64,000 nt of DNA from Lunularia cruciata (lineage: Eukaryota; Streptophyta; Marchantiopsida; Lunulariales; Lunulariaceae): positions 57,626,593 through 57,690,592 of the forward strand of contig OX419759.1 of NCBI GenBank assembly GCA_948567375.1, given 5' to 3'. Below, piece after piece: positions 18,238 through 41,203 of the stretch. The notes beneath the pieces were generated by a model. It was not told the origin of the DNA. It made no database searches and worked only from the letters and a program-made list of their open reading frames with translations. Numbering within the stretch: position 1 is the stretch's first letter; each line of letters starts with the position of its first letter. Both the position numbers and the translations under genes were made by a program.

Positions 18238-18257
18238 CTTCGGGATGAAACCCGAAG
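18238..18257 (+). repeat. Small inverted repeat in LTR leader
   Basis: cttcggg (18238-18244) and cccgaag (18251-18257) form a 7-bp stem with a 6-base loop. Related cgaagtaaa...cttcgg motifs recur in the next 100 bases and in solo LTR 1 (about 11740-11870). The purpose is unknown. Confidence 0.5.
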
Positions 18258-18841: not shown

Positions 18842-21124
18842 ATCATCAAGAGAAAGTGTCTCGATGGGCCCGAGGAAGAAGGGAAGAGAGGACATCCGGC
18901 TTGCTGGACAGAGTCGGATTGGAGACTCGTACTTGGGAAGGAGGCGGGTTCGGAGTAGGGAGCCACGTTCTTGGGGAAAGGAGAGATAGCCCAAGAAACA
19001 CAAGAGGTGAGAGATGCCTTCTCGTCAAAGAGAACAAAGAATGGGTACAAAGTTGAGAGCTACAAAGACCCTGTGAGGAGAGGAATTGTGAGTGCACTAA
19101 TGGCCATCCTGAAGCCGGAGAGAACCACTTATGTGATGAAGCACCAAGCGGTGTTCTTTCACAAGTTATTTGCAAGAGAACCAATCAATTGGGCAAGGTG
19201 TTTTGACGGGAGAACGAGGCAGATGGTGTGGAATCTGCAGGATAAGTTGCCTCCACACTACATCGTACCATTTGAAGCACATTTCTACCTTGGGTTGAAT
19301 TTGCTCAATTTGGCAAAGCGCAATAGAATGGTGTCTCATGTCCATCCTGACTTGAGAAAAGAAGTCGACGCGGAGGAGCAACAATACATTCTCCAAATCC
19401 GGAGCACGGACGACTACTATACAAAGATAGGGAAAAACGTGGAGGTCGTGGTAAGTACCCCGACAAAGAAGAGAACTTGGCAAGCAGAAGCCGAAGAAAA
19501 CAAGAAACCTCGAAAGATGCAGAAAAATAACCCGAGGCGAGGGATGGTGGTGATTGAGTCAGAAGATGAAGACTCAGAAGGAGAAGCCGAGCTCAAAACG
19601 GAGGACTCAGAACGTGAGGAGGAACCTGAGCTGACACTGCAAAGTGGAGATACTAGCAGTGACAGTGAAGACGGTGGAGAAATGACCTTGGCACCAGCGG
19701 CTAAAGAATACGAAGAAGAAGTGCAAGCCAAAGTAGAAGCCGAAGACAATGCGGCGCTGGAAGATGAAGTACCGGTGCTAGAGGAGAAGAAGATCGCAGT
19801 ACAGCAAGGATTTTGCTCGAGACGTAAGGCGAAGTGTGAAGCGGGGCCGAGTAGAGTGAAGGAAGAGGTAGAAGAAAGCTCGGGTAGTGAGGCGTTGATT
19901 CCGATACAAAGACTCCAGAGAAGAAGGTGAGTATCGGGAGAACACGAAGAGAGAAGAGAGACCACTCTGCGGGAGAAAGAAGTTGCCAGTAATGGAGTAG
20001 ATTACCTGCAAGAAGTAGTGTGCCCGCTGTTGGTGAAGTTGGAACAGAAGAAGAAGGAGATGCAGTCTACTTGTCCAGAGGTAAAGACTGTTTTGCAGGT
20101 CTTATCAAGATTAGAAGAAGAGAACTCGGAGTTGAAGAAGAGTGTAACCCGAGGTGAGGAAGAGAGAGAAGTACTATGAGTGGAAGCAGTAGAGAGAAGT
20201 CAGGTAATCGAAAACCTGAAGAGAGAAGTGAGTTATCGAGAGGATCTTGCAAGGAAGAGTGACATCGCAAGGGAGAGACAAGTAGCGGAGCATGAAATCT
20301 TGAAGCAACAGTTTGCTTATTCAAGAGTAGAGCTTATCCATGCTATGGCGAGGGTAGCATCAAAGGACCAAGAGCTAGATCGAGTGATGGAGAGTATGGA
20401 GGAGAAGAAGCAGCTCTGGCAAAGAGAGTTGTCTGTGTGGTATAGAGAAGAAGAGAGATTACAAGAGTTACTTCATAATCAGGAAGAGAAAATCGTACAG
20501 AAGGAGAAAGAGAAGGAGGCGGTGAAGGCCGAGTTCGAAGAAGAGTTGGCAATGTACAGAGAGGAATGGCTTGCAGATCGGGAACGAGAACAAAAGACAA
20601 GATTGGAGCCATTGAAGGAGATAGTCCTTAGAGTGAATGCAATGTTAAGTACAGAAGCCAGCATTTGAATTGAAGAAGCGCAACTGCACGAGTTGAAGTT
20701 GTTGGTGCAGGAGACGAGGCGAAGAGAAGCAAAGGACACTGATTTGAATGCCTTGTTAATTAGTCTCAGAACTCGTGTAGACAGAAAGATTTTAGAGGTA
20801 GAGGATAACATTTCAATTAGATTAGACTTAGTGAAAATAGAGTTAGAAAAGCTTTGGCAGGATGTTAAGGCAAAACCCGAAGTAGATAACATAGGAATCC
20901 AAATGTCTTCGGAGTTGCCCTCAGAGACATTAGAGAAGAGTGGGTCGAAGGATGAAGAGTTAGATAGATTACCCACTAGTGCAATTTCAGATCAGGAAAG
21001 AGAATTGTTGGATCTGGTAGAAGATGTAGGAGATGTGAAACCCAAGGAAAGAATATTAGGAAGTAAAGTTACTTTGAGGTCGGGTCTGAAAGCCGAGGAA
21101 GAAGTAGACATCGGATCGGATTAG
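18842..21124 (+). pseudogene. LTR-borne reading frame, best copy (solo LTR 2)
   Basis: One frame can be followed for about 760 codons. It is broken by a TAG near 18955 and three TGA codons (19928-19930, 20177-20179, 20666-20668), and ends with TAG at 21122-21124. Order: a conserved core with TYVMKHQAVFFHKLF, INWARCF and PPHYIVPFEAHFYLGLNLL (19110-19310); a strongly acidic Ser/Glu-rich stretch (about 19550-19790); a long Glu/Lys/Gln coiled coil (about 20000-20620); and a conserved C-terminus with RVDRKILEVEDNISIRLDL (20770-20830). I do not recognise the family. Faint similarity to helical 'plant transposon protein' domains of extra ORFs is only a guess. Confidence 0.7.
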
Positions 21125-22985
21125 TAACCGATTTGACATTTGAAGGGGCAGATATGAAGAGGTGCATTGTCATTTCGGATCTGCAGGTTAGAAAAGTTGT
21201 TGTAGAACGGTATAGTTGTTAGAACTGTCGATTGCTTCACTACTTAAGAGTGGTATTTGCAGAGAATTGTTGTTCAGTGCTCATTATTTCTGAGAAGAGA
21301 TAAAGCAAAGTGCTGTGAAGTAGTGCTCGTCGCTTGAGCTTGATTCCGAGTATCAACTTTGCAATTGTGTTTGTGAATGTTTGGAGAAATTTGAAGTGCA
21401 AGTCAGTGTGCTTGTTGGATGTTGGATTCCACAGCCTTGATCTTCATTCTGTGTGTTGGATCCTGAGTGAAGTGCAATCGAAGCAATGCCTTGACAGATC
21501 TGAGAGGAATTGTAGTGTTGGTAGTATTCTGCATTTGTGAGTGCAGTGCAAGGTTGATGTGAAGCAATTTCGATCGAGGAAGTTGTGCCTTCAGTGGAGG
21601 GGTGGAACACAATTCTGAGGCGAAGTTGTTTTGTAGTGAAGTGCCGTTTTTGGGAGAGCCTGAATCATCACAATCAAGATTGTTTGGAAAGACTTGATGG
21701 AGTTGTGATTAAGGAGTGTGAATTTGTGACAAGACTACGAGTCAGTGCTTGTTACTCTCTTCTGGGTGTGGTTTCTACCTGAGAGATTAAAGACGCAACC
21801 AAGAAGAACTACATGTTACTGTTTGACTTTGTATTTGGACATTTCTGACTTGTATCTCTGCGGGAACAAACTTTACTTACTCGATTACCGCAAAAGTGAT
21901 ATTTGCCGGGTTGTCACAACACTTCAATGCTTCTTACCAAGCTTCTCAATCTTTCCTCCTCTTGGTGTTGGATCACCAACTCCCTCTGCCATGCTTGATC
22001 CTTTCCTGCCACACTCTTCTTCAAGCCCTCTAACTCTTGTTCCATCATAACCACCATCATATTCACATGAATAATTTCAATGTGAACTTTGCCGACCTCA
22101 CCTTTCATCTTCACCATCAATTTTTTCTACTCTTTCAACTCTTGGCTTGATTATGCATCTCTCTTCCATGCTTCTCAAAACTCTTTTGTAAGTTCTCTAA
22201 AGTCTTCTTCTTCAAGACTACATCCACTCAAAGTTCTTCTTCTTCTCTTTGAGTCACAAGCTCCTTCAATTTCTTTACTTTGTCCAGCAAATACTTCACC
22301 ACCTACAACTCATTCTTCACCTCCATATGATCCTGTTGGATCACCTTCTTCTGCCTCTTCAACAACTCTACAATGGACTCACAACTTGCAATAAGTACTT
22401 CACCCCATCAAAGTCTTCTTTGTCCTTGGCCCTATCTTTGTATTTCAATTCTTCCGCCAAAGCCTTCCCCCAAAGTCTTGATCTTCATACCTTCAATGGC
22501 ATTCCCTTTGAGCTTACTTCTTCCTTATAGACTGAGCTTGGACCTATGGGTTCAGCTGTCATTGACTTCTTGGCTCTTCCTCCCTTCTAGTCTTCCTTCT
22601 TTGGCTCTTCATCCATCTCCTCCATGGGCAACTCTAAGCAAGGGCTATCTCCTCCTTCCACACAATCAATTGCCACATGGAACACCTCATCTTCTTCTAC
22701 CTCAACCATTTCTTGAAGTGTACTTTCTTGATTGGCCTAACACATAGAGAGGTTGTAAAAATGTCTTTGTATCGGCCTTCACTTCCCATTCCAAAGATGC
22801 CCTTCTTTAGATTTATCTCTTTGTAGCTCCATCCAGGTACTTTTGGTTCCCGACCCAAGGTTGACTTCTTTGGATTCACTCCAAAGACATATAAGTCTAT
22901 TCTTTTCTTTGTAATTCAGCTTTCTCAATACACTTCTTCAAAACTTGTCAAAAAAAATGTGGGTACCACATACCCCTTCCCTCAA

Positions 22986-24260
22986 ATGTGAGCATTCCCG
23001 CAAATGCCAACAGTAGGTTCTTTATACAAGGCCGGGTAAGTGGTCCAATATTTTTGAACTCTCCACCCATCCATGCAAGTGGCAAAGGGATTGCCTTCCA
23101 GATCTGCCAATTAAATAGAGCCATTGTCATAAATGTGCAAGGCACAATATGGACCCATCCACTATAGATGTGGCTTGCCTAGAAAAATATTTGGTGATTG
23201 TCATATAACAACACCAAATCACCCTCCTGAACAGCAAGAAGCTTGATTTGCTTATTGTGCCTGACCTTCCTCTATTCTTGCACTTCCTTTGTAGTTTGCA
23301 TTGCACCATCCCTTTTCTCTTCTAACCACATTAGTTGATGGATCCAAAGATCCTAGTTTTCTTCCTTTTTCTCTTCTAACCACATTAGTTGATGGATCCA
23401 AAGATCCTAGTTTTCTTCCTCCAACAATTGTTCCTCACAAAGAATCCAATATGACAATACTTCAAATTCAACTGGTAGTATGGGATGCAATCCGTATGTC
23501 AAGAAATATGGAGTTTGTTTGATTGTAATCTTCTTAGTCATTTTGTATGCCCACAAAGCTGTAGGTAACTTTGTGTCCCAATTGTAGGCATAATTGGCTG
23601 TCACTTTATTCAAAATTTTACATAACAATCCATTGGTCTTTTTTGTTAGTCCATTCACTTTTGATTATAGGGAGTCATCTCTTGATGTTTAATCAAGAAG
23701 TATTTGGTTAATGCTTCTACCATGGAGTTCAAAAAATGAGTTCCTCAATCACTAACCAATTACAGAGGATATTCGTAATGTGAAATGATGTTTCAAAAGA
23801 AAAATTCTGCAACTATTTTTGCATCATCTCTCCAAGTTGCCTTTGCTTCCGCCATCTTGGTAGCATAATCAGTGCACACCAAGATGTATATCTTCTTTGT
23901 AACTCCGGTCACTGGTTGAATTGGACCCAAAAAATCAATACCCCATTTCTCCAATGGAGCCAATGGCAGAATTGGTCTCAAAGGCCATTGGGCAATAGCC
24001 GTTGGCTTTCTTGTTTGTTGGCAAGCATCACAATTTCAGATGTAAGCATGAGTATCCTTATACATTGTAGGCCACCAATACTCTGCTGAAAGGATCTTCT
24101 TTACAATGTTCTTCAAAGCATAGTGTCCTCCCAATGCTTCAGATTGTAAGGACTCAATTACTCCTCCAACTTCATATGCCTCCAAGCATCTCCAAAGTAC
24201 TTTGTCTTCGTCCATCTTAAATAAAATATGGTGTTTTAGCTGGTACAGTCCCATCTTCAT
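22986..24260 (-). pseudogene. Integrase of element B
   Basis: Reading on the - strand, the HHCC region shows GGHYALKN and a histidine-to-cysteine spacing like that of element C (about 24140-24020). It is followed by LAPLEKWGIDFLGPIQPV (first D, about 23960), a degraded second-D region (about 23760) and NGLTKKTNGLL (about 23640). In that last segment the catalytic glutamate position reads K. Stops are present near 23660 and 23790. The C-terminal part carries the 54-bp duplication. Non-functional. Confidence 0.78.
23317..23420 (-). repeat. 54-bp in-frame tandem duplication in element B integrase
   Basis: Two adjacent copies start at 23317 and 23371 (ctcttctaaccacattagtt), near-identical over about 50 bp. 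The period is 54 bp, or 18 codons. They fall in the C-terminal integrase region, where element C has a single LWIHQLMWLEEKR segment. Confidence 0.9.
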
Positions 24261-25520
24261 GGGGAAGTTGCCCTCTGCTCCGGGTCTAGCCCCTCAAGAC
24301 AATGGCAAGTATGCAGATTATGATATTTTGCCGCATACCTTGTACTTTGCATTGCCATTAAATGGTCTAACTCTTCATCAAGAAAATAATCATTGACTTC
24401 CAAGTCTTGGTCTTGAGTTTCCAACCTAGATAGGAAGTCCGCATTCAAATGTGAAGCTCCCTTCCTTACTTGTATAGTGTATGTGAATTCTTGTAACAAC
24501 AAGATCCATCTTGCAATGCGCCCGGGCAAATCCGCCTTCTTGACCAGATGTTGCAACGCATAATGGTCAACATAGAAGACAAACTTGTATCCAAACAAGG
24601 TAGTGGCAAAACTTCTTGCAGGTGTACACCATTCCAAAGTGCTTCTCTTTCAATAGTCAAATTATTCTTTTTTGAAACTGAAAGATATCAACTAGCATAA
24701 CAAATCAGGTAGTCCTTCTTCTTCTTGTCTTTCTAACTTAAGATGACTCCGATTGCCATGGATGAAGTGTCCACATACACATGAAAAGGGGCATCCCAAT
24801 TCAAGTCCCTCATAACTAGCACTTCAACCAATTTCTTCTTCAATACTTGGAAAGATTCTTTTTGTTCTACTTCACACAAATAGTCTTTGGAGTTTTTCAG
24901 AAGCTTTGTTAAGAATGTAGCAAGCACCATGTAATTTAACACAAAGCAATTGTAGTATTTGAAATATCCCAAGGAGGCTCTAAATGTTCCCAAATGTTTT
25001 TAGGAGATTCAAAAGCTAAGATAAGTTTCATCTTCTTGACATTGGCTTCAATACCTTGGCTTGACACTCGATTCCCCAAAAGAATTCCTTCATTGCAAAG
25101 AAGCATTTCTCCAAGTGTAATGACAAACTGGAAAAATGACACCTTTCAAAAGTTTGGCAAAGGTAATCCGAATGTACTTCTCTTTGCCCAAACACACAAA
25201 AACCATCAATGAAGACTCCACAATTTGCACAAAAAATCTTTGAAGATTGCATTCATCATCCATTGGAAAGTAGTGGGAGCATTACACAACCTGAAGGGCA
25301 TTTGATTGTAAGCAAACATGCTCCAACAGGCAGTGAATGTAGTTTTGTCCTTGTCTTCTTCTTGAATGGATACTTGATTATACCCTAAAAATCCATCAAG
25401 AAAATTGCAACAAGGATGACCAACTACTTGGTCCAAAATTGTATGTGTGAAATGCAAGGGATGATGATCCTTCCTTGTGACTGCATTCAACTTGCAAAAA
25501 TCTTGGCACACTCAAATCTT
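24257..25520 (-). pseudogene. Reverse transcriptase and RNase H of element B
   Basis: RT motifs include CQDFCKLNAVTRKDHHPL (about 25500), FLDGFLGYNQVSI (about 25400) and AYNQMPFRLCNAPTTFQ (about 25300). The region around the expected FIDDF catalytic box (about 25220) is out of frame, and the neighbouring sequence reads FIDGFCVFG. The second catalytic Asp is therefore replaced by Gly and the enzyme is dead. RNase H parts include AIGVILS (about 24740) and YVDHYALQHLVKKADL (about 24560). Confidence 0.75.
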
Positions 25521-25639
25521 CTCAGTCTTCTTCTTTGGGACAATGACAATGGGGGAGACCTACTCACTGCTTAAGACGAGAAATATTCCTCCAGCCCCTA
25601 AGTACTTGTCAATTTCATCTTTCACTAATAACAAGTACT

Positions 25640-26990
25640 TCGGGTTCAAGCGGTATTGTCTTTGGCAAACCGGAACTGCACTTTCAACCAGATCAATCCG
25701 ATGTTCTCCAAATTGGTGTGAATACCTAGCATTTGATCAATAGACCAGGCAAATACATCTTGGTACTTTATAAACAGGGCAATGTATCTTGCCAACTCCT
25801 CCAAAGTGACTATCTTCAAAGTCTTCAAAAAATTTCCTTCAGTCAAGACTACATCTTGATAGTCATTGAGTTTAATGACTCCTTCAACCTGACTGACTTA
25901 GCTTAACCTGAGTTGAACTGTAGTCAAACCTCCTTCCAAATTGTGTTCACCCAAGGTGATGTCATTTGGATCTTTGTCTTCTACATCCACGTCATAGCAT
26001 TCCAAGTAATTAACTTGGACTTCATCTTCGGAGTTGTTTGAAGACAAAGATGATGAATCTTTGGATTCATCTTTGTCTTTTGACTAAGTTGTTTCCCCAA
26101 GGTGTGGAACCTTTGTCCAACTCATAGTTACCAACTTCTGATCTTCTGATGAGATGTCCTTGAACCTTAACTTTTGTTGGTGCCAATCTACAATAACTTG
26201 AACATTGTACAACTAGGGTCTACCAATCAACAACAAGTAACCAATTTTAGTTACTAGTTGCAACACAATGTAGTTTAACTTGAAGAGCATCCCTCCAATG
26301 ATTGTAGTAATATTTGATAGCATGCCCAAAGGCCATCTCCTGGTTTGATCAACAAATTTCAGAATTTGGGGTATTGGCTCAAACGTAGTAAACCCCAATC
26401 AATGTGTAGTGTCTTCTGTCATGACATTCACACCCGACTCCTAATCAATATGTATGGATGTGATCTTACAGTGTGTGATCTCTACATCCACTTTGGGAGA
26501 TCCGAAATCTTCTTGTTCAATATGATAGATTGTGGGCAAGTCTTTCTTAGTCATCGCCGTTACTTTCTTGAGAGCTACACTCAATTTCATCATGTACAGT
26601 TTGTTGACCTCCCACAATTTCTTGCATGTGACACTAACATTCTTAGATGCCAAACTTGCCACAATATTGTATTGAGGTACTCCTCCCAACTTCACCTTCT
26701 TCACCTTTGTCTTCGGGTTTGAAGTCTCTCCCCGTTCAAAATGGACTTTGGGGCGCTTCAAGATGGTGATTGGAGTACAGGTGGTCTTGACCCAAAGTTC
26801 TTTGGGTTTGCCACCTCACCTTCAATCAGATCCTTCACTTTGGATCTGATGTCCGCCGGAAACACAAGGCTTCATCTTTGTATCCTCCTCCAAACTCATT
26901 ACTCAAGTTCTATGTACTGCTTCCTTGATTTCTTTCTGCAAAGCTTTAGCTAGAATATTTTCCTCCTTGGCAGAAACAATAGCTTTTGGG
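25640..26990 (-). pseudogene. Protease region and gag end of element B
   Basis: From about 26760 to 26210 the translation parallels the protease region of element C: KLGGVPQYNIVA, then a region matching TEGIAHRLGYTTFEP, PQILKFVDQTRRWPLGML and GYLLLIGRP. Between 26200 and 25640 lies the acidic linker before RT. Several stops occur. The sequence stops abruptly at 26993, inside the gag-protease linker, at the start of the LTR of element D. Confidence 0.7.
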
Positions 26991-26993
26991 CAG

Positions 26994-27468
26994 TGTTGTG
27001 GTTTGCATAGCCCGTAAAAAATTCTATAAAGTAAAAAGTATATTTTTATCTCCACATTAGTGGGGTAGCTTGTTTGCTAGATCTAACGGATGAGATGTTG
27101 CTAGGTGAGCAATCTTTGTACATGTATGGGATTGGCCACATGGGTTATAATCTTATCATGTTTGAGGGCTCTAATGAATAAAGATGAGGGCAAGTGGAGA
27201 GACTAGGGAGTGTTTTAGTTGAGGATTCTCAAGGGAAGAAGGACATTAGGAGTGAGAGTTGTAGCAGTGCATGAGTAGTAGAACATTAGAGGAAGCATTT
27301 TAGCATGAGATGTCCTATGCTCTTGATCTGCCACTCTTGAATCCTTTTCTCATCAAGCTTCAAATTTTGCACTGTGACGCCTTATGGGACTGGTTGGTGG
27401 CACATTTAAGGCAATTTTCATGGAGTCAATGATGGGAAACTTGGATCTTATCCTCCTTTCGGTGCTTA
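26994..27468 (+). repeat. 5' LTR part of element D
   Basis: It begins TGTTGTGGTTTGCATAGCCC at 26994. Its first 250 bases match 49536-49776, which follows the integrase and purine tract of element D and so is the 3' LTR. Orientation and order fit a 5' LTR cut at 27468 by insertion of element C, whose target duplication GCTTA is at 27464-27468. The rest of this LTR should start at 41204. Confidence 0.78.
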
Positions 27469-28139
27469 TGTGACAACTCGGCAAATATCACTTTTTTGGT
27501 AATTGGGTAAGTAAAGTTTGTTCCCATAGATATACGATTCAGAATTGGTCAAATACAAAGTCAAAAGTCACAATATAGTTCTTCTTGATTTCTTCTTTAA
27601 TCTCTTAGGTAGAAACTACACCCAGATTAGAGTAACAAGCTCATAATCTTGACAACTTGTCACAAATACACACACACATAATCACATCATAGCAAATTCT
27701 GTCCAAACAACTCCTGATTGTGATGATTCAGATTCTCCCAAAGACGGCACTTCATTGCAAAGAGAAATTTTGCCTCAAAATTGTGTTCCACCCCTCCACT
27801 GAAGGCACAACTTCCTCGATCAAAATTGCTTCACATCAACTTCGTGCTGCACTCACAAATGCAGAATACTATCAACACTACAATTCCTCTCACATCTGTC
27901 CATGCATTGCTCCGATGCACTTCACTCAGGATCAAACACACAAAATGAAGATCAAGGCTACAGAATCCAACATCCACAAACACATTGACTTGCTCTTTGG
28001 AATTCTCCACACACCCACAACCACAAACATGGAATTGACAATCGGAATTAAGCTCAAGCGACAAGCACTGAGAACAGCACTTTGCTTTATCTATCTTCAG
28101 AAATATGAATACTGAACAATATTGTACTACAAATGCTCC

Positions 28140-28148
28140 CCTTAAATA
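28140..28148 (-). promoter_or_regulatory. TATA box in 3' LTR of element C
   Basis: TATTTAAGG on the - strand. It is conserved in position in the family's other LTRs (for example TATTTAAAG near 11320 and 17415). It lies about 120 bp after the stop of the LTR-borne frame, placing that frame in U3. Confidence 0.6.
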
Positions 28149-28268
28149 CTGAAGCAAACGGCAATTCTTCCTACCTACGCACCGCTTCCTAACATCTCTT
28201 CCTACCTGCAAATCCCAATGGACAATCTATCTCTTCATATCTGCCTCTTCCTATCTCAAAATTGACAC

Positions 28269-31214
28269 TTATCCCGATCCGATGTCTACCTCATCATTGG
28301 CTTCCAAACCCAATGATCTTCCTACTACTTCTCCTTCTTCGGGTATAGCTAATTCTACCAATTCCTTCACTAATTCTATCACTACTACACTAGGAACTAC
28401 AATTGCACTAAGGAGTGGCTTATCTAACTCTTTATCTCCTAACCCACTCTTCTCTAATGTGTCACATAATAAGTCCAATGACACCTGAATTCCTACTTCT
28501 GCAACATCGGGTTTCTTCTCCACTGTCACACTATTCCAAATCTTCTCTAACTCCAAATTGACTAAATCTAATCTAAGACTAACATTGTTTTCTACTTCTA
28601 ACATCTTCCGATCTACACGCTCTCTCAATCAAATCAGCAACGTGTTCATGTCCACATCCTTGGCTTTTCTCTTTTGAGTTTCCTACACAAGCAACTTCAA
28701 CCCATGTAGGCGGCCTTCTTCCAATCTCCCTTCAGCCTCTATGCTTAGAATTGCTCTCAATTTCCCCGCAACTTCTCCCACTGATTCCCATGCATATCCT
28801 TGAGAGCGCTCTACCTTCAATTCTTCTCGATACATCTTCAGCTCATCTTCGTACTCCACAGCGAGCATCTTCTTCTCTCCTGCATACTACGTGCTCTGCA
28901 ATTCTGCGCTTTTGACGAGCTCTCATAATTTTTCCTCTTCTTCCTGCCTGGCTGCTAACTCCCTCTGCCATGCTTGATCCTTCTCCGCTGCACTCTTCTT
29001 CAAGCCATCCAACTCCTGCTCCATTACGATGGTCATTGCCTTCAAATGAACATTTTTGATGTGCACATCACTCACTTCCTCCTTCATCTTGCTCAGCCAC
29101 ATTGCCTGTTCCTTTAATTCTCCGGCTTGCCTTTGCAGTTCTTTTTCTTTAACCTCGCAGCTTTCTTGTAACATTGTGAAAGTCTTCTTCTTCAAGACTT
29201 CCTCCCTCTAAAGTTCTTCCATTTCTTCACTTCTTTGGACTTGTTGCTCCTGCAACCCCTTCACTTCACTCAACAAATGCATCACTACCTGCAACTCATT
29301 CATCCCCTTCCTACGATCTTGGAGAATTACTTTCCGATGCTCCTTCAGTAGCTCCAGCAATGGTGTGACCACTTTTGTCAAATCAGATATCCCACCGAAG
29401 TTTTCTTCATCTTTGTTGCCGTCTTCATCTTGAGTCTTCACCTCCTTCATTGGCTCCTTCATCCCAAATTGCGATCTTTGTATCTTCAGAGACATTGTTT
29501 CTATACTTTCTTCTTCTTTACCTATTGAACTTGGCCCCGCTGGATACTCCTCCTTCTCCTCTGGTCTTGGCTTGTTCACCACCATAGCTACACAGTGCCT
29601 CGTTGTTCTAGGTTCTCTGTCCACCATCGCGTGACAAGCTTCACTGACCGCCACCAATTGCTGAACTTCTGGTTCCTTGTCGCTATCACTTCCGGACTCC
29701 TCACTTTTTAAGGTGAGCTCCTCTTCTTTGGATTCCTCCTCTTGCAACTCGGTTTCTTCCTCGGACTCTAATCTCAATGATGCTTCTCTCACCATCTTTG
29801 TATTCTTCATAATCAGTCTTTGAGTCTTCCTTTGAGTGGGAGGTGACTTTGCTTCTTCGGGTTTGCCGCGTTTCTTCGTCTTTGGACTGGTGACTTCTTC
29901 GACCTTCCACTATCGGGTCTTCAAGAAATACTCATTGTTGGCTCATATACGTAGCATATACTGGTGCTCTTCTTTGTCCGCTTCCCATTGTAAGTCAGGA
30001 TGAACATGAGACACCATGTGATGACGCTCCTCTACTGTCAGGAGGTTCAACCCAAAGTAGAAGTGTGCTACGAATGGTGCAAAATAATGCGGCGGAGAAC
30101 CTGTTTGCCAATTGATCACCATTTGCCTCGTTCAGTGGTGAAAGCACTTTGCCCAATTCACCAGAACTCCTACAAACATTTGGTGGAAGAAGATAGCTTG
30201 CTGCATGTTCAGATACATTGTTCATTCTAGCTTGAACATGTCCATCATCGCCCCCACAATACTTCTCCAAATCGGGTCCCAATAGTACTCCACCTTGTAT
30301 CCATTCATTGTTCTTGAAGTGAAAAACGAGTTGCAAATTTCCGCCGTCTCTTTTGCAGCATCACACTTCCGATAGAAGGTGATCCCCATCAGCTCTTGCT
30401 TCTCTCCCCAATACTAACCTCCAATCCCACTCAGTCCATCAAGATGGATTTCCTCTCTTCCCTTCCACCTCGGGATTTATTGTAATTTCAGTTTGTCATC
30501 ACAATTACCTGCCAGTAATTGTGATGACAAACAGAAATCAGGATTTATTGTGATTTCCCTTCCTCACAATTACTGGCCGCTATTTTTGCCATCACTCTCG
30601 GGAAACTAAAATTCCAGTTCCATGCTAAGAAGGTAATACGAAGTCTAGTCAAGACTTCAATTCTAGCTACTACATCTAATCTTCAAATTGCAAAACTTCG
30701 CACCGCCAGCGCATTGGCCACCTTCTTTGCCATAATCTGCTCTCTCGTTCTATGATGCTGAAAGATGATGCCCTCTCCTGGACGAGACACTCTAACTCCC
30801 TCGGGATTGCGGAAAATTTCACTCTCAATGGGCTTTTGGACATGCATTACTGCAGGACGACTACTCAAAGGGATTGGAAATTTACTTGGCATATTCAACT
30901 TGTCCTTGCACAGTCACAATCTTATATTACCCCAAATTGCAATCATTCTTTAGTCAATTTCAAATTCAACCTTCTCTCTTCGGCATGTTGATCCCGGTCA
31001 CTATCAAGACATGCTTCTTTTGCCTTTGCCGTTTCTTGAAGTTTACTTTCTTGCCATGTACTAAGGTTGTTAAATGGTCTTCGTATCTTTTGCACCTTCC
31101 AGCCCAAAGATGGTGCTCTTTTGACTTTTTCTATTGTACTCTTCTTCCAAGTACCTCCATCATCAGATTTGATGTTGTCTTCTTTGGATGTCCTCCAAAG
31201 TTACTTTCGTCCAT
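28269..31214 (-). pseudogene. LTR-borne reading frame, copy in 3' LTR of element C
   Basis: The first ATG (31214) lies 82 bp inside the LTR and reads MDESNFGGHPKKTT. It is in phase with the last block, and the total span of 2946 nt is 982 codons, but there are stops and compensating frame changes. Order: basic N-terminus with KKVNFKKRQRQKKH (about 31070); RVSRPGEGIIF and AKKVANALAV (about 30780-30690); an F/H/W-rich core (about 30200-29990); an acidic stretch with EEETELQEEESKEEELTL (about 29760); a coiled coil (about 29280-28690); and RVDRKMLEVENNVSLRLDL (about 28620). Family unknown. Position is like an env-like or nef-like accessory gene. Confidence 0.7.
30471..30560 (-). repeat. Hairpin insertion present in one LTR only
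   Basis: gtttgtcatcacaattac (30491-30508) and its exact reverse complement (30515-30532) form an 18-bp perfect stem with a 6-base loop. A ggatttattgt-atttc motif occurs on both sides (about 30472 and 30541). The corresponding place in the 5' LTR (about 40450) lacks the hairpin. Confidence 0.8.
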
Positions 31215-31295
31215 TCTTCATCCGCAATTCGACTTCCAGTGCTTACTTCTTCTCTTAAACACTAATAAATAGGAAAAAAAAATGTGGGTACCACA

Positions 31296-31310
31296 AACTC
31301 CCTCCCTCAA
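31296..31310 (-). other. Polypurine tract of element C
   Basis: On the - strand the sequence reads tttgagggagggagtt, directly followed by the 3' LTR start TGTGG. Purine tracts here prime plus-strand DNA synthesis. The same arrangement occurs in element B at 22971-22985. Confidence 0.85.
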
Positions 31311-32705
31311 ATGTGAGCGTCCCCACGAACACCAACAACCGGGTTTTTATACAAAGTCGGGTTCAGGGTCCAATATTTTCTAACCCTCCAACCGTTGACA
31401 TGAGTTGCAAAAGGATTGCCGTCCAAGTCTGCTAGTTGAATAGAACCATTAACATATATGTGCATCACATGATACGGCCCCATCCACCTCAGATGTAATT
31501 TTCCTGGAAAAGATATGCAGCAATTATCATATAACAATACCAAGTCTCCCTCCTGAACAGCTATAGATTTGATTTTTTTATCGTGCTTGACCTTCCGTTG
31601 TTCTTGAATTTCCTTTGTAGTTTGCATTGCATCGTCCCTTTTCTCTTCCAACCACATCAATTGATGGATCCAAAGATCTTGGCTTTCTTCCTCCGACCAA
31701 CGTTCTTCACAAAGTATTCTATATGTCGGTACTTCAAATTCAATTGGTAATATGGGATGCAATCCGTATGTCAGGAAGTAAGGAGTTTGCTTGGTAGTAA
31801 TCTTTTTAGTTGTTCGATATGCCCACAATGCTACAGGTAACTTTGTATCCCAGTCATAGGCATAATTGACTGTCACCTTATTCAAAATTTTGCACAACAA
31901 TCCATTGGCCTTCTCCGTTAGTCCATTTGCTTTTGGGTTGTAAGGCATGGTCTTCCCATGTTTAATGTGGAAGTATTTGGTTAACACTTCCACCATTGAG
32001 TTCAAAAAATGAGTTCCCCTATCACTGACCAATTCCAGAGGACACCCATAACAGGAGATGATGTTTTGGAAGAAAAATTCTGCCACTGTCTCTGCATCAT
32101 CTCTTCATGTTGCCTATGCTTCCACCATTTTGGTGGCATAATCGGTACATACTAGGATGTACCTCTTTCTTGTGACACGGGTTACTGGTTGAATAGGACC
32201 CACAAAATCAATACCCCATTTCTCAAATGGGGCCGGGGGCAAAATTAGTTTCAAAGGCCATTGGGAAGTCACTGTTTGTTTCCCTATTCTTTGACAAGCA
32301 TCACAACTTTGAATATGGGCATGAGTATCTTTATACATCGTAGGCCACCAAAAGAATTTTCTTCACCATATTTTTCAGGGCATAGTGTCCCCTCGATGCT
32401 TTCAAGTGTACGGATTCGATGACTCCTCTGACTTTGTATGCTTCCAGATATCTACGAAGTACTTCATCTTTGCCCATTTCAAACAAAATGTTGTGTTTGA
32501 ATTGGTACGGTCCCATTTTCCGGAGGAAGACTGCCCTTTGTTCCGGGTCTAGCCCCTCAAGACAATGGCATGTATGCAAATAGTGATATTTAGCCGCATA
32601 TTGCGTACTTCGAATAGCCATTAAATGATATAGCTCTTCATTAGGAAACCGATCATTGATTTCCAAATCTTGGTCCTGAGTTTCTAACCTGGATAAGAAG
32701 TCCAC
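31307..32705 (-). pseudogene. RNase H end and integrase of element C
   Basis: After the RNase H tail (VDFLSRLETQDQDLE, about 32690) comes the HHCC zinc domain, with RGHYALKN and CDACQRIGKQ (about 32390-32290). The core follows with FEKWGIDFVGPIQPV (first D, about 32210), LVSDRGTHF (second D, about 32030) and NPKANGLTEKANG (the E, about 31930), all intact. The C-terminal domain has GDLVLLYDN and a KLHLRWMGPYHV segment (about 31560-31470), typical of a gypsy integrase tail. No chromodomain is seen. Frame changes near 32340 and a stop near 32115 break the polyprotein. Confidence 0.85.
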
Positions 32706-33776
32706 ATTTGAATGCGAAGCTCCCTTCCTTACTTGTACAGTGCATGTGAATTCCTATAACAACAAGATCCATCATGCAATTTGCCCAGACAAATCTGCCT
32801 TCTTGACCAAGTGTTGTAATGCATAATGGTCCACATAGAATACAAATTTGTATCCCAACAGGTAGTGGCAAAATTTCTTGCAAGCATACACCATTCCGAG
32901 TGCTTCTCATTCAGTCATCAAATAGTTCTTTTCTGAGACTGATAATTGTTGGCTGGCGTAATATACCGGGTAGTCCTTCTTCTTCTTGTCCTTCTGACTT
33001 AAGATGACACCTATGGCCATGGACAAAGTATCCACATACGCATGAAAAGGGACGTCCCAATTCAGGGCCCTCATAACTAGTGCTTCAACCAGCTTCTTCT
33101 TTAACACCTGGAAAGCTTCTTCTTGATTTGCTTCCCATAGATAGTCTTTGGATTTCTTCAGAAGCTTGGTAAGTGGTGCAGCAAGCACCGCATAATTTGA
33201 CACGAAGCATCTGTAGTATCTGACATGTCCCAAGAAGGCTCTCAGCTCCTGGATGTTCTTTGGGGATTCCAAAGCTGCGATTACTTTAACCTTCTTGACA
33301 TCGACTTCAATACCTTGGCTTGACACCCGATGCCCCAAAAGAATTCCCTCCTTCATTCCAAAGAAACATTTCTCCGGGTGTAATGACAAGCCATCAAAAT
33401 GACACCTTTCAAAAGTTTGGCAAAGGGAATCTAAATGTACATCTCTTTGCCCAAACACACAAAAATCATCAATGAAGACTTCCACAAATTTGCGCAGAAA
33501 ATCTTTGAAGATTGAATTCATCATCCGCTGGAGAGTAACAAGAGCATTACACAACCCAAAGGGCATTTGATTGTAAGCAAAAGTGCCCCAATCGGTCGTG
33601 AATGTGGTTTTATCCTTGTCCTCTTCTCGAATGGATACTTGATTGTACCCTAAAAATCCATCGAGAAAGCTATAACAAGGATGACCAGTTACTTGGTCCA
33701 GAATTATATCTGTAAATGGTAAAGGATGATGGTCTTTTTGAGTGATTGCATTCAATTTGCAAAAATCTTGGCACAC
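32653..33776 (-). pseudogene. Reverse transcriptase and RNase H of element C
   Basis: The open frame from 33776 to 32907 covers most of RT: DFCKLNAITQKDHHPLPF, FLDGFLGYNQVSI, FAYNQMPFGLCNALVT, the intact catalytic box VFIDDFCVFG (about 33470), GILLGHRVSSQGIEVD and LRAFLGHVRYYRCF. RNase H begins with VPFHAYVDTLSMAIGVILS (about 33030) and continues after a frame change with a DHYALQHLVKK-like segment near 32830. A stop precedes the first residue shown, in the RT N-terminus. This is the best-preserved RT in the window. Confidence 0.87.
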
Positions 33777-34025
33777 TCAAATTTTCCCCGTCTTCTTCTT
33801 TGGAACGATGACAATGGGGGAAACCCACTCACTGCTTAGAATAAGGAAAATTATTCTTGCCCCTAAGTACTTATCAATTTTGTCTTTCACCAAGAGGGAG
33901 TACTTCGGGTTCAGGCGGTATTGTCTTTGTCAAACCAGAACTGCACCTTCAACCAGATCAATCCGGTGCTCTCCAAATTATCATGGAATTCCCGGCATTT
34001 GATCAATAGACCAGGAAAATACATC

Positions 34026-34966
34026 CTAGAACTCTATAAACAGGGCAGTGTATCCTGCCAACTCCTCTACAGTGACTGTCTTTGAAATCTTTAAAATCTT
34101 TTCTTTAGTCAAGACCACATCTTGACAGTCATCGTGGTTAATGACACCTTCTACGTGACTTACTCGGCTTAATCCGAGACGTATTGCTGTCAAACCCCTT
34201 TCCTCCAAGTCTTGTTCACCCAAGGCGATGTCGTATGGGTCTTTGTCTTCAACCTCTACCTCATAACATTCCAGATAATTAACTTGGACATCATCTTCGG
34301 AGTCCTTGGAAGACGAAGACAATGAATCTTTGGACGTTCATCCCCGTCTTCTAACAAAGTAGTTTCCCCAAGGTGAGGAACCTTTGTCCAACTCACTATC
34401 ACCAGCTTTTGCTCTTTAGACGAGATGTCTTTAAATCTTAATTTTTGTTGGTGCCAATCCACCATGACCTAGGCACTATACAACCAAGGTCTTCCAATCA
34501 AGAGTGGGTAGCCAGTTTTGGTTACTGGTCTTAACACAATGTAATTTAATTTGAAGGGCACCCCTCCTATAATCATAGTAATATTCGATAGCATGCCTAA
34601 GGGCCATCTCCTGGTTTGATCAGCAAACTTCAGAATTCGGGGTGTTGGTTCAAATGTTGTGTACCCCAATCGATGTGCAATGCCTTCTGTCATGATATTC
34701 ACACCCGACCTCAACTCAATGGGTATGGATGTGATCATACAGCCTGCTATCTCCGCATCTACCTTGGGAGATCCCAAATCTTCTTGTTCAATACGATTAA
34801 ATTTGGGCAAGTCTTTCTTGGTCATCGCCCTTACTTTCTTGAGGGCTGAATTTAGCTGCTTTTTATATAGCTTGTTGTCCTCCCACAATTGTTTAAATGT
34901 GACATTTGCGCTTGTAGACGCCATATCTGCCACAATATTGTATTGTGGAACTCCTCCCAATTTCAC
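34026..34966 (-). pseudogene. Protease region and linker of element C
   Basis: The 34966-34469 frame holds KLGGVPQYNIVADMAST, an ITSIPIELRSGVNIMTEG region in the place of the protease active site, and the conserved tail GYPLLIGRPWLYSA. The canonical D-S/T-G motif is not visible. RSGVN may be a decayed form. The following acidic linker (about 34320-34026) leads to RT. The neighbours and tail motif support the assignment. Confidence 0.65.
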
Positions 34967-37449
34967 CTACTTCGTCTTTGTCTTTGGATCTAAATTTTGC
35001 GCTTGTTCAAAATGAACTTTGGGGTGCTTGAGGATGGTAATCGGAGTGCGTAGGTTCTTGACCGGATGACCATCAGGTTGACCAACTTTGGCTTGGATCA
35101 AGTCTTTTACTTCAGACCTGATATCTGCCGGAAAAACTGGAGGTTGTGTCTTCGTATTTTCCTCCAAACTCATCTCCTGCGTGTGTAGTATTGCTTCCTT
35201 AATTTCTTTTTGCAAGGCTTTTGCTTCAAAAGCTAGGACCTTTTCCTCCTTCGCAAAAAGGATAGCTTTTGGTCGCAGTCTCTTCATTTTTTGTGAGGAA
35301 GAAGACGTAGTACTTGCTTCTTTGGGAGCTCGATTCTTCCTCCCCGCGCGAGTTTCTTCCTTCAAAATTTTGAGGTCCGGCCACTCTCCTTCTGAAGCGG
35401 GACTCCCTTCTTGAGGCCTCTCTTCCTCAAGTGTGATACAATTTACATTTGTATCCCCCTTTGCCTGGTGTGCAGCACGCTCTATGGGAGTCTGTATATA
35501 CTTGACAGGGGGCTTTGGATTGGGTGGTTGCGGGCACTGATTTTCTATGTGCCCCGATCCTTTACAATTCCCACAAAGGGGCATGTACCCAATTTGTTGT
35601 CTTAGCTCCGGACAATTTGGAGACCAATGTCTCATCAAGCCACAATTGTAACAAGCACCTGGTGCAACATTTTGAGGTCTATTTTGGCCACCCATCGGTG
35701 GTCTTTGTGGAGGAGCAGTAGGATTATACTCTCATGGTCCATACCTGGGACCTTGATATGATGGGCTTGCTGGAGGCTGTATTTCTTGGGTTTGGTATAT
35801 AGACTCTTCTTCTTTGCCCTGATCCCATCCGGGAACCCAATCAATTTTGTTGCACTGGAAATGCCGTACAAGTTAAACACTCTGTATTAGCATGGCCGGA
35901 TTTACCACACGCAGTGCACCATACATTTGGTTGACCAAATGATGGGGGCTTTCTTTGGTCCTTAGCCCCAATCATCTAGATCTTGAAATCTGCAAACTCT
36001 TTAATAAGAGTTTCCAACTTCTGATCCACCTTAGGTACATTCTTTACTGGCAGCGTTACTGGCTTCTTTCCTTCACGTCTTTGTATTCTCCACGGCTTGG
36101 GTTCTTTGTCGGATTCCGAAGACAAACTAGAAGATGTGGAGGATTCCTCCAAAGAAGGGGAGGTGCTGCGAGAAGCTCTTTGTCTTGGCTTCTTGCACTT
36201 CTTCTCACGATTTCTTTGGTTGTTGGATGAGTGAGAATGAGCCGCCTCATATCAGGCGACATGTTTGAGGACTTTGTCCAGGGAAGTTACATTCCTCTCC
36301 TTGGCAAAGATTTGAATCTCCGGTGAAAGCTCTCCAAGAAACCAGGTAATGACTTGGGCATCGGAATAACCCACCACTGGATTGTTTTGGAACTCGGTTC
36401 AATAAGGCCATGAACTGCTCAGAGTAATCTCTCAATTTTTCCTTCTTCCCTCGATCCAAATCATTAAGTGCCGCAAAGACACTTGTATCATAATCCACTT
36501 CCCAAAATCATTCCAGGAAGTGATTTTGTAAGTCTGCCCAGTCTGCTGGTGTGAATCCTTTCTGCGTTACATGGGTATACCAGCTCCAAGCCTTCTTTTG
36601 GAGCAGACTTGGAAAAATCTGTAGTCAATCTACGGAGTCATGTTCCTTGTTGGCAAAGGAAATGACTTTGAACTCCTCAATGAATTTTTCAGGGTCTTCA
36701 TCTTGTTCCGTACCTTTATACTTTTGATAAGCATGTCGGGTCATAGGTAATGAAGTCATCGTTCGGTGCGGCAGATTTGGCTGTGGTTAGTTTGAACTTA
36801 CGGGAACCGAAGAGCTACTTGGTATGGATGCCATGTTGTCTGCCCATAGGTTCCAATTTGTCAAGTTCAAATTGGGATCTTCTTTGAAAATTTCTTCTTC
36901 TCTGGTTGTGTTGACTTCAACCCGATCAGAAGTAAGAGGTTCCACAACTTCAACCTAGTCTTTGAACTTTCTTCGGGATAACCGGGGAATTGTTCGTACC
37001 AGATGTTGACACTCTTCTTCCATACGTTTTCATGCTGTCTTTTCACAAACAAACTTCTTAATGAATTTGACTTCCTTTACAGCTTTAGGGGAAGTTGGTG
37101 TACTGGGTCGTAATGCATATGTCTGCCCACTCGAGTCTTTCTTCTTCTTGGAAGAGGGGGATGAAAAGTAGCCTTGCCACCCTCCTTCACGTCTCTTTTG
37201 TTCAAGTTCTTGTAAAGCTTCTTGAACTTTTTGCATGAGTTGATTGTCCAACGCTTCTAGCTCAGGTTCGGCCAACATAGATTGGATCTTCAGACGTTCT
37301 TCTTCTTCACAATGCAACATTTGTCTTCGAGCTCTCTCTCTTCCCATTGTTCTTGCAATGCAGACATTCATATTGCGTTGATACCTAGTTTCAAATTTGG
37401 CTTTGTATTCTTCCACTTCCGAGATTTTTATCCCCGGCAGCGGCGCCAA
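34967..37449 (-). pseudogene. gag of element C
   Basis: gag starts just after the primer site, and an in-frame TGA lies immediately upstream. The first block (37449-37030) is charged and helical (RRQMLHCEEEERLKIQ). A capsid segment is seen at about 36480-36380 (LRDYSEQFMALLNRVP). Two CCHC knuckles follow: CYNCGLMRHWSPNC and CGNCKGSGHIENQC (about 35650-35560). A basic linker to the protease ends at 34967. At least two frame changes occur, near 37030 and 35700. Gag would package the RNA, and twin knuckles are common in Athila/Tat elements. Confidence 0.78.
37431..37448 (-). other. Primer binding site complementary to tRNA-Asp
   Basis: On the - strand TGGCGCCGCTGCCGGGGA lies 7 bp inside the 5' LTR edge. 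It matches the Athila-type site TGGCGCCGTTGCCGGGGA, complementary to the 3' end of plant tRNA-Asp, with one mismatch. This sets both the LTR boundary and the element orientation. Confidence 0.85.
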
Positions 37450-38123
37450 AAATCATGTGACAACCCGGCAAATATCACTTTTGTGGTAATCGGGTAAATA
37501 AAGTTTGTTCTCATAGAGATACGATTCAGAATTGGTCAAATACAAAGTCAAAAGTCACAATGTAGTTCTTCTTGATTTCTTCTTTAATCTCTTAGGTAGA
37601 AACTACACCCAGAAGAGAGTAACAAGCTCACAATCTTGACAACTTGTCACGAATACACACACATAATCACATCATAGCAAATTCTGTCCAAACAACTCTT
37701 GATTGTGATGATTTAGATTCTCCCAAAGACGGCACTTCACTGCAAAGAACAATTTCACCTCAGAATTGTGTTCCATCCCTCCACTAAGGCACAACTTCCT
37801 TGATCAAAATTGCTTCACATCAACTTCATACTGCACTCACAAATGCAGAATACTATCAACACTACAATTCCTCTCACATCTGTCAAGGCATTGCTCTGAT
37901 GCACTTCACTCAGGATCAAACCCACAAAATGAAGATCAAGGCTGCAAAATCCAACATCCATAGACACACTGACTTGCTCTTCAGAATTCTCAATACACTC
38001 ACAACCACAAACACGGAATTGACAATCGGAATTAAGCTCAAGCGACGAGCACTAAGAATAGCACTTTGCTTTATCTATCTTCAAAAATATGAATACTGAA
38101 CAATATTGTACTGCAAATGCTCC

Positions 38124-38132
38124 CCTTAAATA
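38124..38132 (-). promoter_or_regulatory. TATA box in 5' LTR of element C
   Basis: TATTTAAGG on the - strand, followed about 30 bases later by a likely start region near 38095. If correct, U3 is about 3.1 kb and R plus U5 about 640 bp. The element transcript would then start downstream of the 5' LTR copy of the reading frame. Confidence 0.6.
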
Positions 38133-38252
38133 CTGAAGCAAACGGAAATTATTCCTACCTATGCACCACTTCCTAACATCTCTTCCTACCTGCAAATCCC
38201 AATGGACAATCTATCTCTTCATATCTGCCTCTTCCTATCTCAAAATTGACAC

Positions 38253-41113
38253 TTATCCCGATCCAATGTCTACCTCATTATTGGCTTCCAAACCCGATGA
38301 TCTTCCTACTACTTCTCCTTCTTTGAGTATAGCTACTTCTACCAATTCCTTCACTAATTCTATCACTTCTACACTAGGAACTACAATTGCACTAAGGAGT
38401 GGCTTATCTAACTCTTTATCTCCTAACCCACTCTTCTCTAATGTGTCACATAATAAGTCCGATGACACCTGAATTCCTACTTCTGCAACATCGGGTTTCT
38501 TCTTCGCTGTCGCACTATTCCAAATCTTCTCTAACTCCGAATTGACTAAATCTAATCTAAGACTAACATTGTTTTCTACTTCTAACACCTTCCGATCTAC
38601 ACGCTCTCTCAATCAAATCAGCAACGTGTTCATGTCCACATCCCTGGCTTTTCTCTTCCAAGTTTCCTGCACAAGCAACTTCAACTCATGTAGGCGGCCT
38701 TCTTCCAATCTCCCTTCAGCCTCCGTGCTTAGAATTGCTCTCAACTTCCCCTCAACTTCTCCCACTGATTCCTATGCATATCCTCAAGAGCGCTCTACCT
38801 TCAATTCTTCTCGATACATCTTCAGCTCGTCTTCGTACTCCGCAGCGAGCATCTTCTTCTCTTCTGCATATTGCGTGCTCTGCAATTCTGCGCTTTTGAC
38901 GAGCTCTTCTAATCATTCCTCTTCTTCCTGCTTGGCTGCTAACTACCTCTGCCATGCTTGATCCTTCCCCGCTGCACTCTTCTTCAAACTAGCTTCAAGC
39001 TAAAACTCTTGCTCCATTATGATGGTCATCACTTTCAAATGAACATTTTCGATGCGCACATCACTCACTTCCTCCTTCATCTTGCTCAGCCACATCGCCT
39101 GTTCCTTTAATTCTCCGGCTTGCCTCTGCAGTTCTTTTTTGTTAACCTCGCAGCTTTCTTGTAACATTGTGAAAGTCTTCTTCTTCAAGACTTCCGCCCT
39201 CCGAAGTTCTTCCATTTCTTCACTTTTTCGGACTTGTTGCTCCTGCAACCCCTTCACTTCACTCAACAAATGCATCACCACCTACAACTCATTCATCCCC
39301 TTCCTACGATCTTGGAGAATTACTTTCCGATGCTCCTTCAGTAGCTCCAGCAATGGTGTGACCACTTTTGTCAAATCAGATATCCCACCAAAGTTTTCTT
39401 CATCTTCGTTGCCGTCTTCATCTTGAGTCTTCACCTCCTTCATTGGCTCCTTCATCTAAAGTCGCAATCTTTGTATCTTCAGAGACATTGTTTCTGTACT
39501 TTCTTCTTCTTTACCTATTGAACTTGGCCCCGCTGGATACTCCTTCTCCTCTGGTCTCGGCTTGTTCACCACCATAGCTACACAGTGACTCGCTGTTCTA
39601 GGTTCTCTGTCCACCATCGCGTGACAAGCTTCACTGACCGCCACCAATTGCTCAACTTCTGGTTCCCCATTGCTATCACTTATGGACTCCTCACTTTTTA
39701 AGGTGAGCTCCTCTTCTTTGGATTCCTCCTCTTTCTTCCTCAAACTCTGATCCCGATGATGCTTCTCTCACCATCTTTGTATTCTTCATAATCAGTCTTC
39801 AAGTCTTCCTTTGAGTGGGAGGCGACTTTGCTTCTTCAGGTTTGCCGTGTTTCTTCGTCTTTGGACTGGTGACTTCTTTGATCTTCCACTGTCCGGTCTT
39901 CAAGAAAAACTCATTGTTTGCTCGCAAATGTAGCATATATTGGCGCTCTTCTTTGTCCGCTTCCTGTTGTAAGTTAGGATGAACATGAGACACCATGTGA
40001 TGATGCTCCTCTATTGTCAGCAAGTTCAAACCAAAGTAGAAGTGTGCTACGAACAGTGCAAAATAATGCGGCGGAGAACCTGTTTGCCAATTGATCACCA
40101 TTTGCCTCATTCGGTGGTGAAAGCACTTTGCCCAATTCACCGGAACTCCTGCAAACATTTGGTGGAAGAAGACGGCTTGCTGCATGTCCACATATGTTGT
40201 TTGTTCTAGCTTGAACATGGCCATCATTGCCCCCACAATACTTCTCCAAATCGGGTCCTGACATGACTCCACCTTGTATCCATTCGTCGTTCTTGGAGCA
40301 AAAAATGAGTTGCAAATTTCCGCCGTCTCTTATGCAGCATCACACTTCCGATAGAAGGTGATTCCTATCGGCTCTCCCACTTCTCTCCCCAATACTAACC
40401 TCCAATTCCACTCAGTCCATCAAGCCGGATTTCCTCTCTTCCCTTCCACCTCGGGACCCTCCTCACAATTACTAGTAGCAATTTCTGCCATCACTCCCGT
40501 GAAACTGAAATTCCAATTCCATGCTAAGCAGGTAATACAAAGTCTAGTCAAGATTTAAATTCTAGGTACCACATCTAATCTTTGAATTGCAAAAATTTGC
40601 ACCGCCAGCGTATTGGCCACCTTCTTTGCCATAATCTGCTCTCTCATTCTACAACATTGAAAAATGATGCCCTCTCCTGGACGAGACACTCTAACTCCCT
40701 TGGGATTGCGGAAAATTTCACTCTTGATGGGGTTCCGGACACGCATTATTGCACGATGACTACTCAAAGGGTTTGGAAATTTACTTGGCATATTCAACTT
40801 GTCCCTGTGCAGTTGCAATCTTATATTACCCTGAATTGTAGTCATTCTTCAGTCGATTTCAAATTCAACCTTCTCTCTTCTGCATGTTGATCCTGTTCAA
40901 TGTCAAGACATGCTTCTTCTGCCTCTGCCGTTTCTTGAAGTGTACTTTCTTGCCATGTACCAAGGTTGTTAAACGGTCTTTGTATCTTTTGCGCCTTCCG
41001 ACCCAAAGACGGTGCTCTTCGGACTTTTTCCATCATACTCTTCTTCTGAGTACCTCCATCATTGGATCCGATGTTGTCTTCTTTGGATGTCCTCCGAAGT
41101 TACTTCCGTCCAT
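38253..41113 (-). pseudogene. LTR-borne reading frame, copy in 5' LTR of element C
   Basis: The first ATG (41113) lies 85 bp inside the LTR and reads MDGSNFGGHPKKTT. It then shows RVSRPGEGIIF (about 40690), the core with TTYVDMQQAVFFHQMF, VNWAKCF and PPHYFALFVAHFYFGLNLL (about 40220-40010), HHMVSHVHPNLQQEAD (about 39990), an acidic stretch (about 39740), a coiled coil (about 39280-38700) and RVDRKVLEVENNVSLRLDL (about 38610). Stops and frame changes are present, and the span is not a multiple of three. It is a duplicate of the 3' LTR copy, made by reverse transcription. Confidence 0.7.
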
Positions 41114-41203
41114 TCTTTGTCCGCAATTCGACTTCCAGTGCTTACTTCTTCTCTTAAACACTAATAAACAAAGAAAAACAAAAAATGTGGGTACCACAGC
41201 TTA

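Follow-up and report, generated by a model that had tools for sequence, protein, structure and literature searches.

In long terminal repeat (LTR) elements generally, both LTRs receive their U3 from the 3' end of the RNA through reverse transcription, and the two LTRs of one element are identical at insertion. The nef reading frame of human immunodeficiency virus (HIV) reaches into U3 of the 3' LTR. In mouse mammary tumor virus (MMTV), sag lies inside U3, and so in both LTRs, and is driven by its own U3 promoter, P2 (PMC9412291; here and below, statements on cited papers refer to the available part of their text). The extra open reading frames (ORFs) of plant elements are placed in the internal region, upstream or downstream of gag-pol (PMC7264820, PMC6317226; internal region also in PMC11963269). 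Here we analyse a 64,000-nt stretch of the genome of the liverwort Lunularia cruciata (contig OX419759.1, positions 57,626,593 to 57,690,592; hereafter the window, from whose first letter coordinates are counted) and describe element C, a Ty3/gypsy-type LTR retrotransposon of a family designated A, at 27469-41198 on the minus strand, whose LTRs each contain a conserved frame of about 850 codons. This frame, decayed here and predicted to lie in U3, probably encoded a soluble accessory protein that was kept by selection during the spread of the family.

Among the described systems, nef only partly overlaps the LTR, whereas the frame of element C is wholly inside it. The likeness to sag is one of layout, not of sequence: the whole frame stands between the start of the LTR and the LTR promoter, which in element C is a sequence match only, but host and lineage differ, the frame here has about 850 codons, and the superantigen role of sag has no meaning in a plant. 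The preliminary description of this DNA had stated that U3-borne ORFs occur in animal retroviruses, and sag bears this out (PMC9412291). Plant elements with extra ORFs (the env-like ORF of Athila, gene23 of Grande, RIRE2, Retand) resemble element C in having a long extra ORF downstream of pol, often without relatives, but place it internally, between pol and the 3' LTR, whereas in element C the frame is part of the LTR (PMC7264820; PMC6317226). At the position of the plant env-like class (eORF-3'F), element C has 11 nt between the integrase stop TGA and the 3' LTR, filled by the purine tract, so that an extra ORF could not fit there internally. Retrosat2, RIRE3 and RIRE8 likewise combine long LTRs (about 3 kb or more) with an extra ORF, ORF0, but this lies upstream of the gag-pol ORF and is not placed in the LTR (PMC3485330). 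In the open literature (5.39 million papers; titles and beginnings of abstracts; most subscription papers were not covered) we recognised no plant case of an ORF in an LTR, MMTV being the only match.

The limits of the LTRs are well defined. Comparison of the window with itself (blastn) gave a repeat pair at 27468-31295 and 37455-41198, which, together with the ends and the target-site duplication, places the 3' LTR at 27469-31295 (3827 bp) and the 5' LTR at 37456-41198 (3743 bp), both on the minus strand. The borders read GCTTA followed by TGTGACAA at one side and ACCACA followed by GCTTA at the other, a 5-bp duplication located at 27464-27468 and 41199-41203. The primer-binding site (PBS)-like site TGGCGCCGCTGCCGGGGA (37431-37448, minus strand) lies 7 nt past the 5' LTR, and the purine tract GGGAGGGAGTT (31296-31306, minus strand), between the integrase stop and the 3' LTR, touches the latter. 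LTRs of about 3.8 kb, fixed by duplication, primer site and purine tract as in the preliminary description, were therefore confirmed.

The same limits recur in the host genome (565.8 Mb), which was compared with the last 1001 bp of the element C LTR; 40 of 9428 first-look candidates were scored, 2 of them inside the window, and of the 38 outside it 20 were fetched (10 kb each). At 8 of these 20 places both LTR ends and a perfect 5-bp duplication are present, namely in five solo LTRs of 3693-3752 bp (L013, L017, L021, L023, L026), two short LTRs (L012, 1899 bp; L019, 2056 bp) and a 2666-bp deletion form (L022). The duplication has one mismatch at L015 (3744 bp) and L020 (1846 bp), and 10 of the 20 places lack an LTR start/end pair with duplication. 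A second A-type element, on C1, has GACTT at both ends, a full-length 5' LTR with PBS, and integrase end and tract directly preceding a 3' LTR that has lost about 1.05 kb relative to its own 5' LTR. Given the solo LTRs with duplications and this second element, the 3.7-3.8 kb repeat is a real LTR. The contrary observation named beforehand, LTRs only about 0.8 kb long with an end near 38.25 kb, was not made at any of the 20 fetched places; the short-LTR copies, considered for this role, were ruled out, being 1.8-2.1 kb long and a separate subfamily. Three A-type 3' LTRs (L032, L036, L029-L031) carry distinct internal deletions of 1.0-1.4 kb that take away much of the frame's second half; in two of these three elements the 5' LTR (5' sides L037-L039) retains the deleted stretch, and none was found for the third.

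Each LTR of element C contains one copy of the frame, from a conserved ATG to a conserved stop, at 38253-40791 in the 5' LTR (ATG at LTR position 408) and at 28269-30892 in the 3' LTR (position 404), both on the minus strand and both with 11 stops and frameshifts. Downstream of the frame stands the TATA-like box TATTTAAGG (38124-38132 in the 5' LTR and 28140-28148 in the 3' LTR, minus strand), 120 bp past the stop codon in either case, so that the reported arrangement, a frame inside the LTR ending about 120 bp before a TATA box, holds in both LTRs. Its reported extent had to be redrawn: a start at 82-85 bp and 950-980 codons had been given, whereas the ATG shared with the related family B lies at 408/404 and the conserved frame has about 850 codons, of which 846 codon columns could be mapped. 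Coding upstream of position 408 was rejected, as the differences over positions 100-354 (310/367/349 by codon position) are without codon-position bias. The conserved start codon is ATG in six of nine A LTRs (both of element C included) and in six of seven mapped B copies, the rest having GTG or ATA, and the stop codon occupies one aligned position in A and B alike.

Since the whole frame is placed before the putative promoter, it is predicted to belong to U3, in line with the earlier assignment, and the U3/R border would lie behind the TATA-like box. An improbable alternative has transcription starting near the LTR start, with the frame carried in a long 5' leader and hence outside U3; the first 400 bp or so of the LTR, which precede the ATG, could hold the promoter this calls for, and the B copy carries only a changed form of the box. 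Against it, TATTTAAGG is present in all nine aligned A LTRs, at the distance from the stop given above for element C, and divergence along the LTR, taken in 200-bp bins, is lowest behind the box (3201-3600).

Family B provides the comparison on which the case for a protein chiefly stands. Its solo LTR in the window (18138-21918, plus strand, 3781 bp, flanks GCACT/ACACT with one mismatch) contains the frame from ATG to TAG at 18551-21124 (plus strand; 857 codons, no net frameshift, six stops inside). In-frame matches between A and B copies have 39-58% identity (tblastn with natural A pieces, window matches of at least 130 residues), and most matches begin at residue 20 of the first piece, which is the conserved start codon. 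This similarity over most of the frame, with the shared start and stop, is a stronger argument for a protein than the ratio of nonsynonymous to synonymous change (omega, or dN/dS). In the wider genome, a piece of the B protein had 22363 first-look matches, of which 124 were scored, and among these 124 rows at least six same-strand pairs lie 9.3-10.0 kb apart, a spacing of about one LTR plus the internal part. One such B element (L040/L041) has two LTRs of 3784 bp with AGAAG flanks at each end, a PBS-like site after the 5' LTR, and integrase end and purine tract before the 3' LTR. The pair L043/L042 likewise has this PBS-like site and the tract; the L042 3' LTR ceases to align near 2.9 kb, so that the divergence of the pair outside the frame is unusable. 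Because B elements share the layout, the frame-in-LTR arrangement is likely older than the A/B split. The conservation noted beforehand in at least four copies stands, with a count that proves an underestimate (15 A copies and several B copies were mapped).

Differences among A copies fall preferentially on third codon positions (7077/7007/10045; 105 pairs, the C pair included), and their median omega is 0.40 in frame versus 0.64 and 0.87 in the shifted frames. The LTR pair of element C has differences of 62/72/58 by codon position, with an omega of 0.76 (bootstrap 0.57-1.08). The codon set omits L011, which has the same flanks as L010; the short-LTR places L012, L018, L019, L020, L027 and L028 gave no A codons, and L018, L019 and L020 gave B copies. 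With L014 and the C LTR pair left out, the pooled A-A omega is 0.39 (0.34-0.45; 90 pairs). The A-B median is 0.24, under an alignment guided by protein similarity and with saturated dS (median 2.1). Nine mapped B copies gave 36 pairs with omega 0.19-0.64 (median 0.26), dS being saturated in many; of ten tblastn-mapped pairs, from five of these nine copies, eight have an omega of 0.25-0.34 and the other two have 0.44 and 0.64, and the six between-element B pairs have 0.25-0.32.

How low these values are depends on the null. The assumption that LTR pairs, being neutral, have an omega near 1 proved too simple, as two same-element B pairs gave 0.41-0.42. Transitions, many of them at CpG, account for 620 of the 756 polarised changes across four LTR pairs from A and B, a CpG-transition-biased decay as expected for methylated repeats, and because of this transition-rich spectrum omega without selection is below 1 here. 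The same-element values led us to take a spectrum-matched neutral simulation as the null, which has a mean omega of 0.52-0.67; the minimum among 200 runs was 0.39 and 0.42 (two settings) at between-element divergence, and 0.33 and 0.41 at the lower same-element divergence. Most B omegas lie below every neutral run at their level. The expectation of dN/dS below 1 between copies is accordingly borne out by the six B pairs at 0.25-0.32, and the pooled A value sits at the edge of the null.

Several observations weigh against a protein kept by selection. The between-element margin of omega is moderate, because the mutation spectrum itself lowers omega; the two same-element B pairs stand at 0.41-0.42, the values 0.44 and 0.64 among the ten B pairs are inside the neutral range, the pooled A-A omega of 0.39 is at its edge, and synonymous changes between A and B are saturated. 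All 15 A copies examined, some of them partial, are broken, with 4-12 stops each, and 22 of 25 indels in the frame of nine A LTRs are not multiples of three. The lesions of A are mostly private (22 of the 25 indels occur in a single copy), and shared indels, of which the frame has only three, one of them a multiple of three, yielded no test of the frame. The function of the product is a guess, as no relative was found in any of the databases searched (see below). The two-row AlphaFold model of a window piece (predicted local distance difference test score 39) is too poor to use, and the start of R, splicing and any second promoter are inferred.

That every A copy is broken and that the protein lacks known relatives would also fit a chance open frame or a decayed noncoding repeat with no protein history. 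We regard this as very improbable, given the third-position excess, the in-frame similarity of A and B over most of the frame, the shared ATG and stop, and the B rows with uninterrupted frames: 3 of the 124 scored rows list frames of 824, 862 and 878 codons with no stop in the match, which we take from this listing as uninterrupted. The possibility raised earlier that no intact member survives thus fits the 15 A copies examined and does not fit family B, and the proposal that the frame once encoded a protein is upheld by the codon-position excess, the A-B similarity, and the common start and stop.

Relatives of the LTR protein were sought in Pfam, NCBIfam, PDB, IMG/VR and a set of 5.8 billion proteins, and none was credible; the best match, of one coil-like piece to the coiled-coil family Nuf2_DHR10-like (E 0.0021), is below the cut-off. 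Pieces of A and B copies gave no Pfam match to plant mobile domain, Transposase_28 or Athila ORF-1. A 19-residue hydropathy mean of 1.6 is the usual level for transmembrane segments. Simple hydropathy over nine pieces, two of them overlapping, found no such segment, the highest 19-residue Kyte-Doolittle mean being 1.49. The predicted protein has a helical first half, followed by an acidic and then a coil-like part, with no membrane anchor, suggesting a soluble, largely helical accessory protein. The label "env-like", attached to the ORF in the preliminary description, is unsupported, because there is neither a membrane segment by this measure nor a family match.

How the frame came to lie in the LTR can be addressed through the junction of integrase and 3' LTR. 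One possible origin, that of the preliminary description and in our view somewhat less likely than not, is that the ORF formerly stood between integrase and the purine tract, and that the tract priming the second strand shifted to just behind pol, making the ORF and its surroundings part of U3. Plant elements commonly carry an extra ORF in the interval from pol to the 3' LTR (PMC7264820), and in element C the tract touches the integrase stop, with nothing left internal. The tract was found directly behind the same integrase-end sequence at 5 of 23 LTR starts and at L041 and L042, in family A, family B and an older related element whose 3' LTR start, at 22970 on the minus strand of the window, is directly preceded by this sequence; the other 18 starts lack it, as expected of 5' or solo LTRs. 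At all seven junctions the tract thus already stands right behind the integrase end, with no intermediate and no copy in which the frame is placed between integrase and LTR, and the frame has no similarity to known extra-ORF families, all of which speaks against such a shift. Among six element ends fetched through their reverse transcriptase (RT) match, three match both integrase and LTR, a fourth matches integrase and has a weak 0.4-kb LTR piece, and two match neither; the E1 junction is deleted, and the integrase/LTR junction is directly readable in two of the six.

A second origin, which we consider rather unlikely, is that foreign DNA, a captured gene or a nested element, brought the frame into an LTR that already existed, between the first 0.4 kb or so of U3 and the promoter. 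The short-LTR subfamily bears on this question. It is a coherent group of 1.8-2.1 kb LTRs at 6 of the 20 fetched places (the six listed above) that has in common with A the LTR start motif and the last 1.04 kb or so, at 90-93%, and differs in the middle, which lacks a long sense frame and shows off-diagonal matches of about 30-110 bp that look like short tandem repeats. Having a different middle, this subfamily indicates that the middle of the LTR is exchangeable, which speaks for such an entry. The shared 1.04 kb, however, contains the last 80 or so codons of the frame, all that the short group retains, so that the short form looks like a derived product of LTR swapping, not an ancestral state, and no donor gene was found in the 5.8-billion-protein set. 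Because the short group lacks most of the frame, its existence suggests that the frame is not needed in cis, and this ORF-less subfamily is likely a user of the product in trans.

Under the favoured reading, a selected accessory protein encoded in U3, the 3' copy of the frame would lie in the genomic RNA downstream of pol and ahead of the polyadenylation site, and could be translated from a shorter spliced RNA or, by analogy with MMTV sag, from a second promoter in the first 400 bp or so of U3. As reverse transcription rebuilds both LTRs from the 3' U3, each insertion would gain two identical copies of the frame, and a solo LTR would keep one. The product may act on RNA, particles or chromatin, more likely than as an envelope, and may help both its own element and ORF-less relatives in trans.

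The wider consequences can be sketched only with reserve. We venture, at somewhat less than even confidence, that a liverwort Ty3/gypsy lineage has made its LTR a gene, a new family of about 850 codons in at least two diverged element families; that solo LTRs keep the accessory gene and serve ORF-less relatives in trans; and that this partnership helped drive genome-enlarging bursts of repeats. If so, what is normally an empty footprint, the solo LTR, would retain the accessory gene in full. A coding LTR upsets two common assumptions, one being that solo LTRs cannot code for anything and the other that long LTRs are regulatory padding. As the cited reviews and surveys place plant extra ORFs internally (PMC7264820, PMC6317226), a search of the internal region would miss an LTR-borne frame. 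Each cycle rewrites both LTR copies from one, offering a natural system for copy correction by reverse transcription, and expression is directly testable, because B copies with uninterrupted frames are listed in a living plant.

As to classification, element C has the hallmarks of Ty3/gypsy elements: integrase behind RT-RNase H, TG..CA LTR ends, PBS and polypurine tract, with an integrase core match that is below the Pfam cut-off and an H2C2 match above it. On the minus strand, its internal part comprises a zinc-knuckle piece from the end of gag (34970-35731; Pfam zf-CCHC 1.5e-5), an RT and RNase H piece (32910-33776; RVT_1 1.9e-17, RT_RNaseH_2 9.1e-17) and integrase remnants (31307-32362), namely an H2C2 piece (32117-32362; 4.1e-8), a core piece (31310-32104; rve 0.012, the sub-cut-off match) and the stop codon (31307-31309). 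Among the best 120 of 1803 matches by similarity, the top named ones are from Marchantia, Riccia and Calypogeia, named flowering plants ranking lower. Membership of the Athila/Tat superclade (OTA) goes with an RT that groups inside OTA in trees and with a PBS for a specific tRNA, tRNA-Asp. The additional (archaeal-type) RNase H (aRH) of Tat elements was not found in element C, so that Athila/Tat as a firm label is unproven. Liverwort Tat elements are likewise without aRH, but the available part of their description mentions no LTR-borne ORF (PMC10508981).

The surroundings of element C are complex. The region 16729-27463 and beyond consists of nested insertions, in which the older element with its 3' LTR start at 22970 is seemingly interrupted by the B solo LTR; the internal part of this older element matches 31014-35279 of element C at 78% and extends to the insertion point of element C. 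Elsewhere in the window, a 256-bp stretch is directly duplicated at 5753-6260 (94% identity, offset 252 bp), and a separate reverse transcriptase piece lies at 56440-57606 on the minus strand (RVT_1, E 4e-10).

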